From NCBI GenBank assembly GCA_015493495.1, contig WGDB01000120.1:1-38386 (forward strand): a stretch of 38,386 bases of DNA, in the 5' to 3' direction. Positions 28,405 through 36,322 of the stretch are shown in pieces; within the stretch, counting starts at the first letter, position 1; each line of letters starts with the position of its first letter. The translations under genes were made by a program, and so were the position numbers. The notes beneath the pieces are model-generated. The model saw only the letters and a program-made list of their open reading frames with translations. It was not told the DNA's origin and searched no databases. This DNA comes from Helicobacteraceae bacterium. GTDB taxonomy: Bacteria > Campylobacterota > Campylobacteria > Campylobacterales > Sulfurimonadaceae.

Positions 28405-30465
28405 TTATGATGCTACAGGTATCACTTCGACTTTTATCGTCTTGAAGGCTGCCGTCAAGATGACTTCATCACGAGCATCACCAAAAAGTGCATTGATCTT
28501 AGACTTGGCATGATGGAAGGTCGAAAAGAGTGTTTTTGGCTGTACTTTGTCGGTGATCTTGATCGTCAGCGGTGTCGTCTCACCAAACTCACTTCTAAGA
28601 ATTACCTGCTCACTTGTAAAGTCTGCGGCATCCGCTTCACAGACAAGTAAGATATCTTCATCATAACGTTTCATCAAGTTTTCACTACGTGACGTCTGCG
28701 CTGCGTTATTATAGTGTGCTAATGTTCTTCCTGTAGAGAGGTGATAACCCGTCAGCTTCTTCTCCATGATCTCTTTGATCATCCCACGAAGTTTGTACTG
28801 GTTGTACTTGAAGCGACCAAGACCATCATCTGTACGGAAGTCGAGCTGATGCAGTATCGGAGTGTCTTCTGTATGAACTGGCCACTGAAGTCCACGTTTA
28901 CGGTGCTTTTCAAGTCTGTGATAATCAGCCCCGCTAAAACGTCTATAAGCTACTTTTTGGACCTCTTCCCAAACCTCTTTAGATGAAGCATAGTTATAGT
29001 CTCCCCCCATTTTGTTGTCAAGCATCTGTAAGATTTCCCAGTCATCAGGAAGATCAGACTTGACGAGAGGCTGTGAAAGGTGTAGACGACGCATCGCATT
29101 GACATAAACACCGGTCTTTTCATACGCTGACTTCACCCCCACCACGATGTCTGCACGCTTGGCGATGTCCGTCATAAACAGCTCTTGAACAAAGATCATG
29201 TCAAGCTTTTCAAATGCCTTGTCGATTTTGTTTAGGTTCGGATGGATGTGTGTCAAGTCTTCACCGATATTCAGAACAACCTTTACTCTGTCTTCCAACA
29301 TCTCATCCACGAGCTGCGGTGTCATAAGACCCACCTCTTTTGGTGTCTGATAGTCAGGATCATAGTAAGGGAGCATTCCCATGTCACAAGTTCCTTGAAC
29401 ATTGTTCTGTCCACGAAGCGGCATAAGACCTGCACCCGGCTTACCGATATTACCGGTCATCAACGCCAAATGCACCATCGCCATAACTGCATAGCTGCCA
29501 TCTATATGTTCAGTAATACCCAGTCCCCAAAAGATCATCGACTTTTTGAGAGCATACTCACGCGCCACTTTACGGATCATCTTAGAGAGGTACTCATACC
29601 CCTCGATCTCTTTATAATAATCAGGATTGGCATAAGGATCGTTCATGATCTTAGCTTTAAAGTCCAAAAATCCTGTTGTTCGGTCAGCCACAAAACTGTC
29701 ATCATATAACTCTTCATCGATAATGACATAAGCGAGCATATTAAGGGTCAAAAGGTTCGCTTCATGCGGCATAATCGCCTTGTATTTAGAGAAACGGTGC
29801 AGTTTGATCTCTCTAACATCAAACACGGCGAGGTTATCATGCTCTCGTGACACATCGATAATACGGTTCGCGATGATAGGGTGTGCCTCTGTTGTATTGG
29901 AACCAATGACGATCATAAACTCACAGTTGTAGATGTCATTATAAGGGTTGGTAGCAGCACCTTCACCAATGGTCACACGCATCCCCGAAAGTGATGGCGA
30001 GTGACAGACACGTGCACAGTTATCAACATGAGGAGAATCTAGTGTATGGCGTGTAAATTTCTGAAAAAGATAAGAGCTCTCACAAGAGGTTCTCGCCCCA
30101 CCAATAGAACAGATGGACTTACGACCATAATTCTTTTGTGTCTCTTTCATCTTCATCGCACACGCCGTCGTGGCAGCATCAATATCAGTCTCATACCAAG
30201 TCTCGTCGAAATCAACTAAAGAAGAAGCTACTGCCTCTTTAATGGCAGGGTTTTTTTCTAAAAAGCTTTTACGGATACGTGGTATGCGCAGACGGTCATC
30301 TGCATCCACAAAGTCATAGCCGTACTTCCCTTTGATACAGAGCTTACCCTGAGAAACAACCCCGTCCGGATGGGCAAAGATCTTAACGATCTTGTTATCT
30401 TCAACATGAGCAGCAATATCGCACCCCACCCCACAATATGTACATACGCTGTCTATAGTTTCCAT
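28405..30465 (-). CDS. Formate dehydrogenase-like molybdopterin oxidoreductase, Cys type
   Basis: The 686-residue protein opens with a 4Fe-4S site, Cys8, Cys11, Cys15 and Cys43 (CTYCGVGC, KLCIKG). DNCARVCHSPS at 148-158 is the active-site region of FdhF-type enzymes, with Cys154 where E. coli FdhF has selenocysteine. GLGITEHIDGSYAVMA near residue 314 and MPLRGQNNVQGTCDMG near 346 are further family motifs. There is no twin-arginine signal, so it should be cytoplasmic. It would oxidise formate, or reduce CO2, with bis-molybdopterin. No electron-transfer or membrane subunit, and no FdhD, is adjacent; it shares a transcript with yraN. A different substrate cannot be excluded. Confidence 0.82.
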   Translation of the reverse strand: METIDSVCTYCGVGCDIAAHVEDNKIVKIFAHPDGVVSQGKLCIKGKYGYDFVDADDRLRIPRIRKSFLEKNPAIKEAVASSLVDFDETWYETDIDAATTACAMKMKETQKNYGRKSICSIGGARTSCESSYLFQKFTRHTLDSPHVDNCARVCHSPSLSGMRVTIGEGAATNPYNDIYNCEFMIVIGSNTTEAHPIIANRIIDVSREHDNLAVFDVREIKLHRFSKYKAIMPHEANLLTLNMLAYVIIDEELYDDSFVADRTTGFLDFKAKIMNDPYANPDYYKEIEGYEYLSKMIRKVAREYALKKSMIFWGLGITEHIDGSYAVMAMVHLALMTGNIGKPGAGLMPLRGQNNVQGTCDMGMLPYYDPDYQTPKEVGLMTPQLVDEMLEDRVKVVLNIGEDLTHIHPNLNKIDKAFEKLDMIFVQELFMTDIAKRADIVVGVKSAYEKTGVYVNAMRRLHLSQPLVKSDLPDDWEILQMLDNKMGGDYNYASSKEVWEEVQKVAYRRFSGADYHRLEKHRKRGLQWPVHTEDTPILHQLDFRTDDGLGRFKYNQYKLRGMIKEIMEKKLTGYHLSTGRTLAHYNNAAQTSRSENLMKRYDEDILLVCEADAADFTSEQVILRSEFGETTPLTIKITDKVQPKTLFSTFHHAKSKINALFGDARDEVILTAAFKTIKVEVIPVAS

Positions 30466-30649
30466 GTGTCACCCTAGTTCTGAAATAGTTAAGTCTAGCA
30501 TCTACTGATATTACAATTCACTATTTTAGCGCTTAGTTTACAGTGAAGTGACTTAATAAGATTGGAAGTAGATTGAGAAGGGAAATGATTAATGCTTATG
30601 TAAGTGTATCTCTTTCAGACCTTTTTTGAATTCATTTTGATTATCGATC

Positions 30650-31801
30650 TTAGAAGCTTTTCTTCCAGCATCTTTCAAGCTCTGTTAAAAACGCAGATAC
30701 TTCAAAATGCTCTACTTTATAGGCTTTTATCTCATTTGACACCTTACCAATAGCTTGCAAACATACGTCTATTATTTCAGTGTACTCACGAGTACTCAAG
30801 CCACAACTATGTTTGGCAAAGAGCTTATAGGTTTTCTCTTTCCACCACAGTTTGGCACCACTCATCTTCAGTGCCGGTATGTCTTTTTTGATGTAAACGG
30901 TTGTTGTAATGACATCATATATCGGTGAAAGTCGTGCATCCTCAAAATCATTTTCATAGAGGACACCATAGTTTTTAAGGTGTCCATCTCCATTTTGAAG
31001 TAGATGGTTCATAATTAGTGCTTTGAAAAATGTCTTGAGTGCCTCTTTTCTCTTTTGTGGCGGTATGACATCTTTGATGACACGAACGATCTCTTCATAG
31101 CTTCCTTCGTACTTATCATCTGTTCCTCTTGCTGTCAAAACACACATATCTTCAAACCCAAGGTACTTGCCATCTTCTTGAACATCAAAACGTTTTATGA
31201 TAAACATAGATCGGTCATCACTAAGGTAAAAGTCAGGCGTTTCCAAGCCTGCATGCTGCAAGGCTCTCATACAGAAGTATTCATTAAGTGCCAGTTCGGG
31301 ATACTCTTTTTCCCATGACTTGACGATGTAATGCTCAAACTTCATAGTGTTTTTGTTCTGTGCACTGAGCAAAAGCTTAGGTTGAACACCTGAGACACCA
31401 GAACGTATGGAGAAGCACTGCATCAACTCTTCAAAAAGGTTGGCAGTCGAGGTGGTTAAGATATCTTCGAGTACCAAGGCTTCTTCATCTTCTATGATCT
31501 TGTTAAACTTTACACGTCCAAGCATATAAGGTCCGATAAGTCTTAAGAAGTTAAGATCATCCATCTTCTCTATTTTTGAAAAATGGTTTTTGATGACCTC
31601 TTTAAGCACACCTTCGGGCATATTCATCTGAAAGACAGGATGCAGTGTCTTAGAGTTCCAGCTTGCTTTTCTTATAGGCATAGTCAGTGAGACTACAGCA
31701 CTGCTAGCAGGCAAGTAGTTAAAGACGTACTGATCATTTTCAAAATCCAAGATACCGTTCTCACGCTTGTTGACATAGACCTGGAGTGTTCTATCGCTCA
31801 T
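30650..31801 (-). CDS. hipA: HipA-like Ser/Thr kinase toxin
   Basis: The 383-residue protein has the HipA layout: N-terminal subdomain to about residue 100, the flexible loop SGVSGVQPKLLLS at 134-146, the Lys-containing IIKRFD near 201, the catalytic loop NGDGHLKN at 270-277 and the metal-binding SPIYDVITT around 292-300. HipA kinases phosphorylate aminoacyl-tRNA synthetases or other targets and slow growth; E. coli HipA targets GltX. All key residues are present, so it looks active. It overlaps hipB by 11 bases. A short frame beyond its 3' end is discussed under rejected items. Confidence 0.9.
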   Translation of the reverse strand: MSDRTLQVYVNKRENGILDFENDQYVFNYLPASSAVVSLTMPIRKASWNSKTLHPVFQMNMPEGVLKEVIKNHFSKIEKMDDLNFLRLIGPYMLGRVKFNKIIEDEEALVLEDILTTSTANLFEELMQCFSIRSGVSGVQPKLLLSAQNKNTMKFEHYIVKSWEKEYPELALNEYFCMRALQHAGLETPDFYLSDDRSMFIIKRFDVQEDGKYLGFEDMCVLTARGTDDKYEGSYEEIVRVIKDVIPPQKRKEALKTFFKALIMNHLLQNGDGHLKNYGVLYENDFEDARLSPIYDVITTTVYIKKDIPALKMSGAKLWWKEKTYKLFAKHSCGLSTREYTEIIDVCLQAIGKVSNEIKAYKVEHFEVSAFLTELERCWKKSF

Positions 31802-32033
31802 CTTGCAACTCCTCTAAAGTTTTCGGACCACCTTTTTCTCGTAAGCAAAACTCCATCCCTAAAAGGTCTAAGATCATCTCTACTTTTTTGATCCCGACTT
31901 CATCTATGAAGCCATTTTCTATTTTACTGATGGTGCGTTTGGTAATGCCCGAATAGTTCTCCAGGTCAGCTTGTGACCAGGCTTTCTCTTTTCGGAGTTG
32001 TTTGATGTTTTGACCGAGATCTGTAAGTGTCAT
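31791..32033 (-). CDS. hipB: HipB-like HTH antitoxin
   Basis: The 80-residue protein is an Xre-type helix-turn-helix: IKQLRKEKAWSQADLENYSGITKRTISKIENG near residues 9-40. It is first in the operon and overlaps hipA, as HipB antitoxins do. It should bind the palindrome at 32056-32096 and repress its own promoter. The ATG at 32031-32033 has AAGAGAA upstream. Confidence 0.9.
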   Translation of the reverse strand: MTLTDLGQNIKQLRKEKAWSQADLENYSGITKRTISKIENGFIDEVGIKKVEMILDLLGMEFCLREKGGPKTLEELQDER

Positions 32034-32055
32034 TTTTATTCTCTTAAGATGAATT

Positions 32056-32096
32056 ATACTTCATAATTTTACCATAGAACTATAAATATGAAGTAT
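32056..32096 (-). promoter_or_regulatory. hipBA promoter-operator
   Basis: ATACTTCATA (32056-32065) and TATGAAGTAT (32087-32096) are exact inverted copies 21 bases apart. The minus-strand -10 box TATAAT (32058-32053) overlaps the proximal half-site, which fits autorepression by HipB. Confidence 0.7.
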
Positions 32097-32488
32097 TCTT
32101 CTTACTACTTCCAAAAGGTCCATTATTAAAAGATACACATTAAAGGGCATCTCTAATGCTATTAATTAAATGATTTTTGTTTCTAGTGCTTAACATTTTT
32201 ATATTTTTTCAAAATTGCATCACATCTTTAAAGAAGAATGTTTATATAAGTGTATACCTAAAGTAGCACATACACCACTAACATCTTTACAAAATCTTCT
32301 TGGATCTCTATAGTGCAATAATGACGTTTATAAAGATGTTAGAACTTTGAGTTAAGAGCATGTTTATTTACACTGATGCTAACAATAAGTGAAAATTTTT
32401 AGAACATATAAACTTTAAATTAATTTTTATAAACAATAATTAATAATTAATAATTAATAAGGTAGGATTCTATTTTAAAGGAGCCTAA
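32097..32488. other. AT-rich 392-bp stretch between hipBA and the surface operon
   Basis: No gene is seen. It contains the inverted repeat at 32278-32342 and, at about 32436-32460, a tandem ATAATTA repeat of three and a half units just before the next gene. The latter may act as an upstream AT element for the operon promoter. Confidence 0.5.
32278..32342. repeat. 16-bp imperfect inverted repeat
   Basis: CTAACATCTTTA (32278-32289) and its exact complement (32331-32342) extend to 15 of 16 matching positions with 33 bases between. It could be an operator, a strong hairpin or the end of a lost element. Confidence 0.6.
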
Positions 32489-33745
32489 ATGGATAGAAAT
32501 ACAATAATGGGAGCAGTGCTGATACTTAGCACACTGCTTTTGAATGGTTGTTTAAATAACTCGGATACAAAGAACATACAAAAGGATAGTGGGAGAACAG
32601 TAGATGTAGCACAAATTACGCAATTATCAGCTAGTGAAAACATTTATACTTCGGCTTCTATAAATGACGGGAGTACTATTTTATTTGGAGGAGATAATGG
32701 GCTAACTTTTACCTCAATCTCGAATAGGGATCCTATGATTTCTAAAAGTTCCAAACATCTGTTTTTTGATATTCCAACGTTTTCATCTAATGATACAGAT
32801 ATAAAACAAAGCAGTGCACTGAATACAGATGCTAACAAGAGTAAAGTTAAAATATACAGTATTTGTAATGTGGCCAATAGTCTCTATATTGGAGGAAAAT
32901 TTGCATTTGTAAATGGTGTTAAAAAAGACAATATTATCAGATTGACTTCATCTGGCGCTATTGATGATGATTTTAATGCAAGTGTTGAAGGTTCTGTTTA
33001 TAAGATAATTAAAACAGATACAAATATCTTTATAGCAGGTGCATTTGGCTCATATAATGAAAAATATGTACATAGTATTGCAAAATTAGATTTGATTGGA
33101 ACTCTTGATGAATCGTTTAACCCTTTTGCAGATTATATGATAGCACGTATTAATGATATAGCAGTATTGCCAAATGATAAGATTGTATTAGCAGGAACGT
33201 TTCTAAAAGAAGCCAGTATAGAAGACCAAAATTCTAGCATGGAAGAGTTGATTCAAAAAACGAGAGCTGTCATTATCTTAAATGTAAATGGTACGATAGA
33301 TGAATCTCTTTCTGAGAAGTTTGCAGATATAAAGCATGAAGCATATGCAATAGATGTACTTAATGACACCATCTATATTGGTGGAGGATTTGAATTTATT
33401 AAAGAAAAGATATCTTTTAATGATTTAGTCGCATACACTATAGAGGGTGATCTTAATACTGACTTTCATATTGGTAAACTTAGTGGTCTTGTTTTTGATG
33501 TGAAAGCACAAGACGACAAAATCATATTTGCAGGAGACTTTATTTTAGATGATGATTTAAAAACACGTTCATTTTATATGGTTGATCTTTTTGGTAGTAC
33601 TGTTAATATTAACAACTTTTCTGTTGATGCAGATATTTATAGTATAGAGATGTACGAGGACAGTTTAGTGTTATCGGGTGCCGGAGACTTTAAATTGAGT
33701 GGCAGCCAATATAGCAATAGTATTAGTTTAAAACTTGAGGATTAG
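32489..33745 (+). CDS. Lipoprotein with delta-60-like beta-propeller repeats
   Basis: The 418-residue protein has a lipoprotein signal ending LLLNGC (Cys at residue 21). The rest holds repeated pairs: a strand such as LYIGGKF, IFIAGAF, IVLAGTF, IYIGGGF or IIFAGDF, followed 20 or more residues later by GAIDDDFN, GTLDESFN, GTIDESL or GDLNTDF. This is the pattern of delta-60 (DUF5122) repeats, which build beta-propellers. It should be anchored at the cell surface or periplasm. AAAGGAG precedes the ATG. It is first of five closely packed, AT-rich genes. The exact function is unknown. Confidence 0.7.
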   Translation: MDRNTIMGAVLILSTLLLNGCLNNSDTKNIQKDSGRTVDVAQITQLSASENIYTSASINDGSTILFGGDNGLTFTSISNRDPMISKSSKHLFFDIPTFSSNDTDIKQSSALNTDANKSKVKIYSICNVANSLYIGGKFAFVNGVKKDNIIRLTSSGAIDDDFNASVEGSVYKIIKTDTNIFIAGAFGSYNEKYVHSIAKLDLIGTLDESFNPFADYMIARINDIAVLPNDKIVLAGTFLKEASIEDQNSSMEELIQKTRAVIILNVNGTIDESLSEKFADIKHEAYAIDVLNDTIYIGGGFEFIKEKISFNDLVAYTIEGDLNTDFHIGKLSGLVFDVKAQDDKIIFAGDFILDDDLKTRSFYMVDLFGSTVNINNFSVDADIYSIEMYEDSLVLSGAGDFKLSGSQYSNSISLKLED

Positions 33746-33753
33746 GAGATAAA

Positions 33754-34359
33754 ATGAAAAAAATAATAATTGTTTTGTTGGCGGTAAGTTCGAGTGTATT
33801 GTTTGCTGGTGGTGGCGGTGGCGGTGGAAAAGCTTTTGGTGGTGAATATAATGAAGATAAATATGCTAATAGTAACAATTCAGATGGAATCATATACATA
33901 CCTGACACAGCAAATTCCTCATGTGATATGAATATAAAAGTCGCTACCCATTCTTCCGTTCGTTATAGAAGTTGGGTATGGTATGTACACACATGGAAAA
34001 GTGGTTATGCAACAACAACAGTGACACAATGCGGAAAACCTGTCGCTATACAAGATTTAGAAATTACACAATTTTCATACTCAGTAGGATCAGTTTCTTA
34101 TACATATAAACCATCTAATCCACAGTATAACTACGGAGAACAATGGAATAAGGACAACCCTAACGGAGCACTAAATTATATTATGAAAGAAGGAAGTACC
34201 AGTGAGCATGGCTCTAATTATATTAAGCTTGGATTAGAAGAAGTAGACGAAACAGGCACAGTCATAACCATTCATCATTTTAAAACGTACTATAAGCCAG
34301 CCCAACAAACAAGGGTGTCTAATAAGTGGGGGCCGGGAGATTTAAATTTTGAATTTTAA
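33754..34359 (+). CDS. Secreted protein of unknown function with Gly7 run
   Basis: The 201-residue protein has a signal peptide cleaved near FAG (residue 18) and, directly after it, seven glycines in a row. The mature part is rich in Tyr, Thr, Ser and Asn, with two cysteines, at 57 and 93, likely to form a disulfide. Aromatic-rich beta strands (SWVWYVHTWKSGYATTTV) suggest a beta-sandwich. I recognise no family. It starts eight bases after the lipoprotein gene. Confidence 0.65.
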   Translation: MKKIIIVLLAVSSSVLFAGGGGGGGKAFGGEYNEDKYANSNNSDGIIYIPDTANSSCDMNIKVATHSSVRYRSWVWYVHTWKSGYATTTVTQCGKPVAIQDLEITQFSYSVGSVSYTYKPSNPQYNYGEQWNKDNPNGALNYIMKEGSTSEHGSNYIKLGLEEVDETGTVITIHHFKTYYKPAQQTRVSNKWGPGDLNFEF

Positions 34360-34945
34360 AATAGTACAAAGTATAGTGTCATTGATGTTGTTAGCTGAAG
34401 GTCTTTGTGCAAAAGAGACATTTGTTTCTATAGAAATGGCTTTGTCTGCACATCCTATGAATGACGAGTATAGAATAACTGGTTCAGGAGGGTCTTCTTA
34501 CACTAGAGGGACGATGAATACTTTTGGTGTGGGTCGGGAAATAGATCTCTCCTCTTTACACAGTCGAATAGAACCTACATTAGGGTATCAACTTTATAGC
34601 AATCTATCATATTCTCATATTATTTATTTTGAGTTGCCATTACTATACACATACTCTGTGTTGGGGCAAAAAATTAGTATGGGTCCTTCTTTGAAGTATT
34701 TATATATTGCAAAGACGGCTATTAATTCATACAATGGAAATGTCCCTATAGATCAAACAAAAAGTGCTTTTTCATATGGCTTGAAGTTGATGTTAGAAAA
34801 AGACAGTTTTGACTTTTATGTGAAGTATGATTATTTGACACATGCAAATTTTAATATCAATACAGATGATGGCAACACTATAAATCAGATAGATATTGAT
34901 ATGGATGGTAGCTATATGGGACTAGGAATACGGTGGAAGTTTTAG
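34349..34945 (+). CDS. Outer membrane beta-barrel-like protein, paralogue 1
   Basis: The 198-residue protein has a signal peptide (to about residue 21, LCAKE), alternating amphipathic strands and a C-terminal IRWKF ending in Phe, the usual outer membrane barrel signal. It clearly resembles the next protein: SRIEPTLGY, FELPLLYTY, SMGPSLKYLYI and GLGIRWKF have counterparts there. Size suggests an eight-stranded barrel. The start is TTG at 34349 with GGGAG upstream, overlapping the previous gene by 11 bases. Confidence 0.7.
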   Translation: MNFKIVQSIVSLMLLAEGLCAKETFVSIEMALSAHPMNDEYRITGSGGSSYTRGTMNTFGVGREIDLSSLHSRIEPTLGYQLYSNLSYSHIIYFELPLLYTYSVLGQKISMGPSLKYLYIAKTAINSYNGNVPIDQTKSAFSYGLKLMLEKDSFDFYVKYDYLTHANFNINTDDGNTINQIDIDMDGSYMGLGIRWKF

Positions 34946-34956
34946 CAAAATGCAGT

Positions 34957-35553
34957 ATGAGTTTTATTAACATGCTCCGCACTATGACTATTTTAATTCT
35001 GCTAGGTGCTCTATTACAAGCTAATGATACATTTGTAAATTTAAGTATCTCAAAATCATCATTATTGGTTCCTACTGTGGTGACTAACAAGTATTATGGT
35101 TCATCAGTAACAATGGCTAACGCTAATGCTTTTGAACTTTCCATAGCGGCTGGACAAAAGTTACATCTTTATAGAATTAATAGTCGTTTTGAACCAAATA
35201 TTGGCGTGATGGCATTTACAAGTTATGACATCTCTTCTACGGTATTGTTTTTTGAGGTACCATTTATGTATGGATTTTATATATTAAATGAAAGGTTTAG
35301 TATAGGTCCGAAGTTGAAGTACCTCTACTTTACAGATATGACTTATACAGATAATGGAAAAGTGCGGAGCCTTGGTGGAAGGTCTTATGGTGCAGGTGGC
35401 GTTAGGTTAATGTATGAGCGAAAGGATTTTGACTTTTTTGTTGCATATGAGTATTTGCCAAATGCAACTGCCAACTATGAGGATACCGAGTCTAAATCAG
35501 TTATAGATTTTAGTGGTGGTTATGTTGAAGTTGGAATCCGATGGAAAATTTAA
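34957..35553 (+). CDS. Outer membrane beta-barrel-like protein, paralogue 2
   Basis: The 198-residue protein is a tandem duplicate of the preceding one, with SRFEPNIGV, FEVPFMYGF, SIGPKLKYLYF, KDFDFFVAYEYLP and VGIRWKI in the same order. A signal peptide (LLGALLQAND) ends near residue 23. The ATG at 34957 gives the same length as paralogue 1; a GTG at 34933, overlapping paralogue 1, and a later ATG are alternatives. No strong ribosome binding site is seen, so translation may be coupled. Confidence 0.7.
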   Translation: MSFINMLRTMTILILLGALLQANDTFVNLSISKSSLLVPTVVTNKYYGSSVTMANANAFELSIAAGQKLHLYRINSRFEPNIGVMAFTSYDISSTVLFFEVPFMYGFYILNERFSIGPKLKYLYFTDMTYTDNGKVRSLGGRSYGAGGVRLMYERKDFDFFVAYEYLPNATANYEDTESKSVIDFSGGYVEVGIRWKI

Positions 35554-36218
35554 TGTTACAAAGAAGTAAAATCATCATTCTTCTTTTTATTTTTTTGATT
35601 ATAGGTATTTACATATACATTGTCCAATATAGTGGGGTTGATGCTACTTCACCTACTGAGAAACAACTTACATATGACACCAAGATATCTAAAAAGTTTC
35701 CTACAGCAAAATGGCTAGAAAATGGTGATATTGTCTTTCGTAGAGGTTATGGCGTTGACTCAAATATTGCGGTTAATTTTTCTGATGGAGAAAAGAGATA
35801 CTCACATGCAGGAATTATTATAAAAGAGAATGATGTTCTATATGTACTTCATTCTGTTGAGGACAAAAAACAAGACTATCATGGTGTTGTAAAGGAGAAA
35901 CTAAAACTATTTCTTAATAATATGGGTATGTGGGCAGTGTATAGGTATGATTTAGATAAAAAAACTAGAGAAGGCATTACACAATATGCGTTAATGATTA
36001 AAAAGTCGAATGTTTCTTTTGATAAAAAATTCGATCTAAATAGTGATGGTTCAATGTACTGTAGTGAGTACATTTATAAGGTTGTTAATAAAGTTTCATA
36101 CCGTAAAATCATTACAGCAAAAAAAATATTTGCAGGTCGTTTGTTTGTTACCGTTTCTAATCTTTATGAAAATAGGTACAGCATACTTATTGATAGTAGT
36201 CATAAAAAATTATACTAA
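35553..36218 (+). CDS. YiiX/YebB-like permuted NlpC/P60 hydrolase, membrane-anchored
   Basis: The 221-residue protein has one N-terminal membrane helix (about residues 7-26) and then a papain-like fold of the permuted YiiX (DUF830) type: NGDIVFRRG near 57, RYSHAGIII with His85, LHSVEDKK near 100 and MYCSEYIYK with Cys170. His precedes Cys, the reverse of normal NlpC/P60 order. Such enzymes hydrolyse amide or thioester bonds; the target may be peptidoglycan, lipid or a protein. The ATG overlaps the previous stop as TAATG; an ATG four codons earlier is also possible. It closes the operon. Confidence 0.75.
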   Translation: MLQRSKIIILLFIFLIIGIYIYIVQYSGVDATSPTEKQLTYDTKISKKFPTAKWLENGDIVFRRGYGVDSNIAVNFSDGEKRYSHAGIIIKENDVLYVLHSVEDKKQDYHGVVKEKLKLFLNNMGMWAVYRYDLDKKTREGITQYALMIKKSNVSFDKKFDLNSDGSMYCSEYIYKVVNKVSYRKIITAKKIFAGRLFVTVSNLYENRYSILIDSSHKKLY

Positions 36219-36249: not shown

Positions 36250-36322
36250 TGAGAGTGCAAAAAATCTGTGTCAATTAGATAATTTGGTACAGAAGGAATC
36301 ACAGATGAAGAATACTCTTTAG
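36250..36322 (+). mobile_element. Remnant of an IS end, IS256-like
   Basis: GAGAGTGCAAAAAATCTGTG resembles the terminal repeat of IS256-family elements as I recall it. It is followed by AGAAGGA and, seven bases on, an ATG opening a frame that stops after five codons (MKNTL). This fits the left end and first codons of a decayed transposase gene. No other part of an IS is seen nearby. Confidence 0.35.

Follow-up and report, generated by a model that had tools for sequence, protein, structure and literature searches.

Five adjacent genes in a 38,386-nucleotide contig of a Helicobacteraceae bacterium (WGDB01000120.1; the whole of this stretch is referred to as the window) encode a propeller-type lipoprotein (P1), a secreted Gly-rich protein (P2), two small outer-membrane barrels (P3 and P4) and a membrane-anchored enzyme of the Peptidase_C92 family (P5). 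The operon appears to reside on a laterally exchanged [A + T]-rich segment, and its barrels and enzyme recur together in other genomes. We tentatively propose, with a little less than even confidence, that it is an exchanged module of the envelope, whose permuted NlpC/P60 enzyme would cleave or transfer acyl chains in the periplasm on behalf of partner surface proteins.

Organization of the operon

The five open reading frames lie within positions 32489-36218 of the window, all on the same strand (Table 1). P1 and P2 are separated by 8 bases and the remaining three junctions overlap by 11-13 bases; from this spacing we infer that the genes form a single transcription unit for the cell envelope. 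Clear Shine-Dalgarno sequences precede P1 and P2, that of P1 being strong (AAAGGAG). The guanine + cytosine (GC) content of the operon is 33.0%, against 39.9% for the neighboring hipBA pair and 41.1% for the remainder of the window, and GC at third codon positions is 0.22-0.29 in the operon genes versus 0.37-0.46 in the seven window genes compared. These values and the tight junctions confirm an earlier sequence-only reading of this DNA, which had described an [A + T]-rich five-gene operon and had assigned it to the envelope; the presence of a lipoprotein, barrels and a membrane-anchored enzyme supports the latter assignment. A 16-nt inverted repeat (94% complementary, 33-nt spacer) is located in the [A + T]-rich region upstream of P1 (window 32278-32342) and is possibly regulatory.

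The C92 enzyme and its active site

P5 matches Peptidase_C92 (PF05708) with 40.3 bits against a cut-off of 27, compared to 48.3 and 46.6 bits for relatives, and starts with a strongly hydrophobic stretch (mean 2.9 over 19 residues), in agreement with the membrane anchor that had been ascribed to it. The sequence-only reading had also called it a YiiX-type hydrolase. The fold family is correct and, like the YaeF/YiiX-like enzymes (YiiX, 2IF6; BcPPNE, 3KW0), P5 has the permuted order of His before Cys and is predicted to associate with the membrane, but its active site differs from that of YiiX at two residues. HMMER alignment to YiiX and BcPPNE, for which the active-site Glu and catalytic Tyr have been named (PMC3142127), places His104 of P5 at their Glu position and Phe160 at the catalytic Tyr of YiiX. 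Moreover, P5 scores 35.1 bits against the YiiX equivalog NF007458, far under the NCBIfam cut-off of 216, and in contrast to the YaeF/YiiX-like enzymes it is encoded in an operon with barrels. Judged by these alignments P5 is not a typical YiiX, and the earlier interpretation stands in part: its envelope and lateral-acquisition components hold, whereas the YiiX label needs correcting.

When 17 complete C92 proteins were aligned together with the 2IF6 segment, every one of them had the permuted pair of His89 and Cys174. The three operon-type proteins all have His89, His104, Phe160 and Cys174, and the group with His and Phe consists of the operon type plus several others (L006 has Asn for the second His). 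In a further set (L052, L056-L059) the His is one column off and the Phe region is missing. The stand-alone C92 genes L008-L010 have Glu and Tyr, as does YiiX, and are taken as a separate, YiiX-proper type.

The active-site set of LRAT- and HRASLS-type enzymes is Cys-His-His, or His-His-Cys, and the aligned residues of P5 fit this set; an acyltransferase or phospholipase activity of P5 is putative. P5 resembles these enzymes and LnsA in being a permuted NlpC/P60 protein, LRAT and HRASLS also in the His-His-Cys residues and LnsA in its link to lipoproteins. YiiX binds a fatty acid in its active site (PMC3142127), LnsA is required for N-acylation of lipoproteins (PMC7387801), and Tox-Act1, a permuted NlpC/P60 antibacterial toxin, is a phospholipase (PMC12994826). 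The acyl chemistry proposed for P5 derives from this family. In contrast to LnsA, P5 has no LnsB (CPBP) partner among the products of the five operon genes or hipBA, to which this search was confined.

Alternatively, P5 might hydrolyze peptidoglycan or peptide bonds, with the operon remodeling the cell wall or trimming exported proteins. The NlpC/P60 superfamily contains many wall amidases and Pfam labels C92 an amidase. However, the wall-active members are of the canonical, non-permuted families, whereas lipids or acylated molecules are the targets of those permuted members that have been characterized (PMC3142127, PMC12994826), and no wall-binding domain was matched by a Pfam scan of the operon proteins. 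We consider a wall hydrolase quite unlikely; among the functions suggested by the sequence-only reading, lipid remodeling is favored.

Conservation of the barrel-C92 core

When 200 relatives were searched with P5, a C92 match was obtained in nine genomes (possibly counting that of the window itself), with a close relative only in Sulfurimonas sp. CG01 (G082, PETN01000054.1; 49% identity). In this genome the C92 gene directly follows a barrel, and a frame upstream of the barrel, picked by eye, contains a 23-residue stretch resembling the P2 C-terminus (score 55, reached by 0 of 1000 shuffles). A barrel-profile search identified a genome of another family (G448) with barrel, barrel and C92 in tandem, the last two 3 bases apart; its C92 protein is 45% identical to P5. 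The conserved core therefore comprises one or two barrels of ~200 residues, followed by a membrane-anchored Peptidase_C92 gene. Because it is found in G082 and G448, and searches at the class level and among G448 relatives added no further operon-type C92, this core is, as far as the searches reach, conserved but rare. We disregarded weak barrel matches (E about 1e-4) in two genomes, G383 and G102; in the latter, the region consists of apparent housekeeping genes with a receptor-like barrel. In both G448 (L045:5046-9084) and the window (28405-36218) the module is located beside a formate-dehydrogenase-like gene, on opposite sides, which may be coincidence.

It could be argued that the genes have no joint function and are unrelated [A + T]-rich envelope genes gathered at one permissive site, as the G448 module is without P1 and P2 and the gene content differs between loci. 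Yet the reading frames overlap, and the barrel precedes C92 in both families as well as at another locus in the same genome, making such a chance assembly very improbable.

C92 genes with an envelope gene upstream are also found elsewhere in the Campylobacterales. In 12 of the 17 other C92 loci of the order, which are not a census as the search profile favors P5-like genes, a small lipoprotein gene is located -32 to +59 bases upstream; two of these lipoproteins were tested and are DUF4878, the rest being judged by eye. No description of the DUF4878-C92 pair was found in the open-access papers searched. As in the operon, the membrane-anchored C92 gene of these pairs immediately follows an envelope gene, whereas the operon has barrels in place of DUF4878 and encodes the secreted P2, which is absent from the pairs.

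The predicted exported partners

The two barrels had been described as paralogous, and indeed P3 and P4 are 34% identical. A P3 model built from eight relatives is a small beta-barrel of mostly long strands (predicted local distance difference test, pLDDT, 76), for which Foldseek places NspA, Ail, OmpA, OmpX and OmpW nearest among solved folds, with OpcA also among the closest (E down to 1e-5 for NspA, Ail and OmpA; superposition loose, template modeling score about 0.5). P3 is similar to the small eight-stranded barrels (NspA, Ail, OmpX, the OmpA domain and OmpW) in size, barrel model, signal peptide and C-terminal aromatic residue. It differs by its loose superposition, its score below the Pfam cut-off for OMP_b-brl_2 (17.7 bits versus 27; P4 gave no match) and the lack of a sequence match in a PDB search, in which P4 likewise had none. 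According to the model, P3 is a small barrel with signal peptide of the OmpA/OmpX/NspA type, perhaps eight-stranded. In a tree of eight barrels, with mostly weak support, one G448 barrel groups with a barrel from contig C63 of the window's genome (95/93) and the other falls near P3, P4 and the barrel of contig C172. As the G448 barrels fall apart, the two-barrel arrangement may be old and the P3/P4 pair may have arisen later.

P1 contains two significant DUF5122 stretches over the Pfam cut-off (44.9 bits versus 27) and a lipobox, consistent with the propeller-like lipoprotein of the sequence-only reading. It shares these repeats with the DUF5122/delta-60 propeller proteins, but is a 418-aa lipoprotein whose clear homologs were limited to two of the searched genomes, both of this genus. 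A diverged homolog is present in G006:C280 (36% identity over 214 residues); a weak P1-profile match in G212 (E 8e-4) was not counted.

The description of P2 as a secreted Gly7/Tyr-rich protein also holds, its signal peptide being followed by Gly7. No believable match to P2 was obtained in Pfam, NCBIfam, PHROGs, PADLOC or PDB, and no homolog was found in genome contigs, plasmids, PDB or the 200 relatives; remnants of its C-terminus occur on contig C4 of the same genome (G000:C4) and in G082. Structure prediction was informative for P3 but not for P2, whose single-sequence model (pLDDT 31) was discarded. Weak matches of operon proteins to Vat(H), QueG and peptide-binding proteins were judged to be chance.

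Together, the exported proteins could constitute a variable surface or adhesion cassette, in which P1, P2 and both barrels would be the adhesive surface proteins while P5 would help in their assembly, either structurally or by processing. The divergent barrel pair, the several diverged or decayed copies and the lateral exchange described below fit surface antigens under diversifying pressure, and NspA, Ail and OpcA, which are among the closest solved folds of P3, are surface proteins. However, OmpA, OmpX and OmpW are among these folds as well, so that adhesion is not specifically indicated, and the constant companion of the barrels across families is the C92 enzyme, not P1 or P2. We regard an adhesion cassette as unlikely.

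Probable lateral exchange and decayed copies

The genes hom and fdhA are contiguous in G002 and G004, two genomes of the same genus, which lack hipBA and the operon at this site; in G006, hipBA and P1 occupy the site that they have in the window. The synonymous divergence (dS) between the genome of the window (G000) and G006 is 0.033 for P1 (one gene, 288 codons), 7-11 times lower than for hipA (0.377), hipB (0.321) and fdhA (0.227). As the value lies far below those of its neighbors, it suggests that P1 was recently exchanged.

Further copies are found within the same genome. On contig C172, a barrel gene precedes what remains of the 3' end of a C92 gene. On contig C4, DNA with 88% identity to window 34270-34944 carries the end of P2 together with P3 and is fused to the P4/P5 junction; its P3 paralog is 87% identical. 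Contig C63 has two barrel genes, one of them truncated by the end of the contig, along with a fragment and the gene of a different lipoprotein, and G006 shares this arrangement of lipoprotein and barrel. At the G006 site syntenic with C172, the flanks are 91-92% identical up to a break (L023:7260 / L089:657), just ahead of a diverged P1 homolog. Because the G006 contig ends within this homolog, we can only infer a full second operon there.

The modules are [A + T]-rich relative to their flanks in every host examined, with a GC content of 0.296 in G448, 0.269 in G082, 0.261 on C172, 0.345 on C63 and 0.335 on C4, against 0.37-0.47 for flanks or neighboring genes. The empty site between fdhA and hom in G002 and G004, the low GC content in all hosts, the decayed copies, the low dS of P1 and an IS256-family end just downstream of the operon support the horizontal acquisition put forward in the sequence-only reading, and the operon is apparently carried on a laterally exchanged [A + T]-rich segment. 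No integration at a tRNA or Rfam element was found. Carriage as phage or plasmid cargo was rejected, as no viral contig carried C92 and the P4 barrel had no plasmid match.

Lateral exchange, decayed copies and the adjacent hipBA could also point to a small island that combines hipBA with a module for competition or defense, in which the operon would supply a toxin with its immunity or would guard against phages or predators; an antibacterial toxin of the permuted NlpC/P60 class is known (PMC12994826). However, P5 is anchored in the membrane and has no delivery domain, and the operon is without secretion-system genes. A scan of P1-P5 with PADLOC models gave zero matches to a known defense system. 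We consider a role in defense very unlikely.

Table 1. Features of the window and related C92 gene pairs
Feature	Position or locus	Strand	Description
P1	32489..33745	+	418-aa lipoprotein, lipobox LLNGC, DUF5122 (delta-60) beta-propeller repeats
P2	33754..34359	+	201-aa secreted protein; signal peptide followed by Gly7; rich in Gly, Ser, Tyr and Asn
P3	34349..34945	+	198-aa small outer-membrane beta-barrel (predicted); signal peptide, C-terminal WKF, TTG start
P4	34933..35553	+	206-aa second small outer-membrane barrel (predicted); GTG start (alternative ATG 34957)
P5	35541..36218	+	225-aa inner-membrane-anchored permuted NlpC/P60 protein (Peptidase_C92); His89, His104, Cys174, Phe160
Inserted segment	30571..36367 (approximate)		absent between fdhA and hom in same-genus G002 and G004 (comparison)
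hipBA-type toxin-antitoxin pair	30650..32033	-	divergent from the operon, inside the same inserted segment
IS256-family insertion sequence end	36250..36311	+	degenerate; match to genus element, transposase identified; just downstream of the operon
Small lipoprotein + membrane-anchored C92 pairs	L006, L007, L051-L059, L061		Campylobacterales

An imperfect inverted repeat just upstream of hipB (32051-32101) could be the hipB operator. Elsewhere in the genome, a ~60 bp element (L068, G000:C17:12201-12258) with the ends GGGACTGTAA...TTACAGTCCC resembles a miniature inverted-repeat transposable element derived from the IS256-family element. A lipoprotein-type family with the motif LPPEPDPxxNNxxLLGIDSNNNGVRDDVE is encoded at L021:1211-2056 (-) and many other loci, and is present in 44 of 180 relatives; its C-terminal ~165 residues are without Pfam or NCBIfam match, and it often occurs in adjacent copies (e.g., G102:C1:2366255-2372415 and G016:C1:1427921-1430134).

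Proposed function

Periplasmic acyl cleavage or transfer is the best reading of the operon, as the characterized permuted NlpC/P60 enzymes act on acyl groups and the partners of P5 are lipoprotein and outer-membrane proteins. In this view, Cys174 of P5 would accept an acyl chain from a phospholipid or a lipoprotein and hand it on to water or an amine. The enzyme would act on, or in the service of, the proteins exported by the same operon: P1, the propeller lipoprotein, and perhaps P2, the Gly-rich protein. The barrels P3 and P4 would hold or present these partners at the outer membrane. The localization of the products is predicted from their signals; the choice of P1 or P2 as substrate and the role of the barrels are guesses.

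Several observations weigh against this proposal. The full five-gene set was not found outside the window in the genomes searched, although barrel(s) with C92 occur in two other species and P1- or P2-like sequences at further copies, and P2 is without an intact homolog. For co-occurrence of the genes elsewhere, the lack of which would have spoken against the sequence-only reading, the outcome is mixed. The G448 module has no lipoprotein gene and the DUF4878 lipoprotein is unrelated to P1 or P2, so that a fixed lipoprotein substrate is hypothetical. Furthermore, the P5 clade has Phe in place of the catalytic Tyr of the superfamily, and catalysis is a prediction. A more novel version, which we consider very unlikely, is a self-contained mobile system for (de)acylation of surface proteins, in which P5 would modify a cognate lipoprotein or the oligo-Gly N-terminus of P2, the paired barrels would hold or display the product, and the DUF4878-C92 pairs would be the housekeeping relatives.

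Apart from P2, for which there is no intact relative, the parts of the operon belong to known families or fold classes. The open-access literature found describes neither their combination nor the altered active site, nor that the module is exchanged. Bacterial permuted NlpC/P60 enzymes are poorly understood, and the few with a known activity act on lipids or lipoproteins. The distinctive active site of P5 is also present in lipoprotein-linked C92 genes of Campylobacterales, and a compact operon tying a permuted NlpC/P60 enzyme to a few exported partners would provide a direct route to the substrate of this branch.

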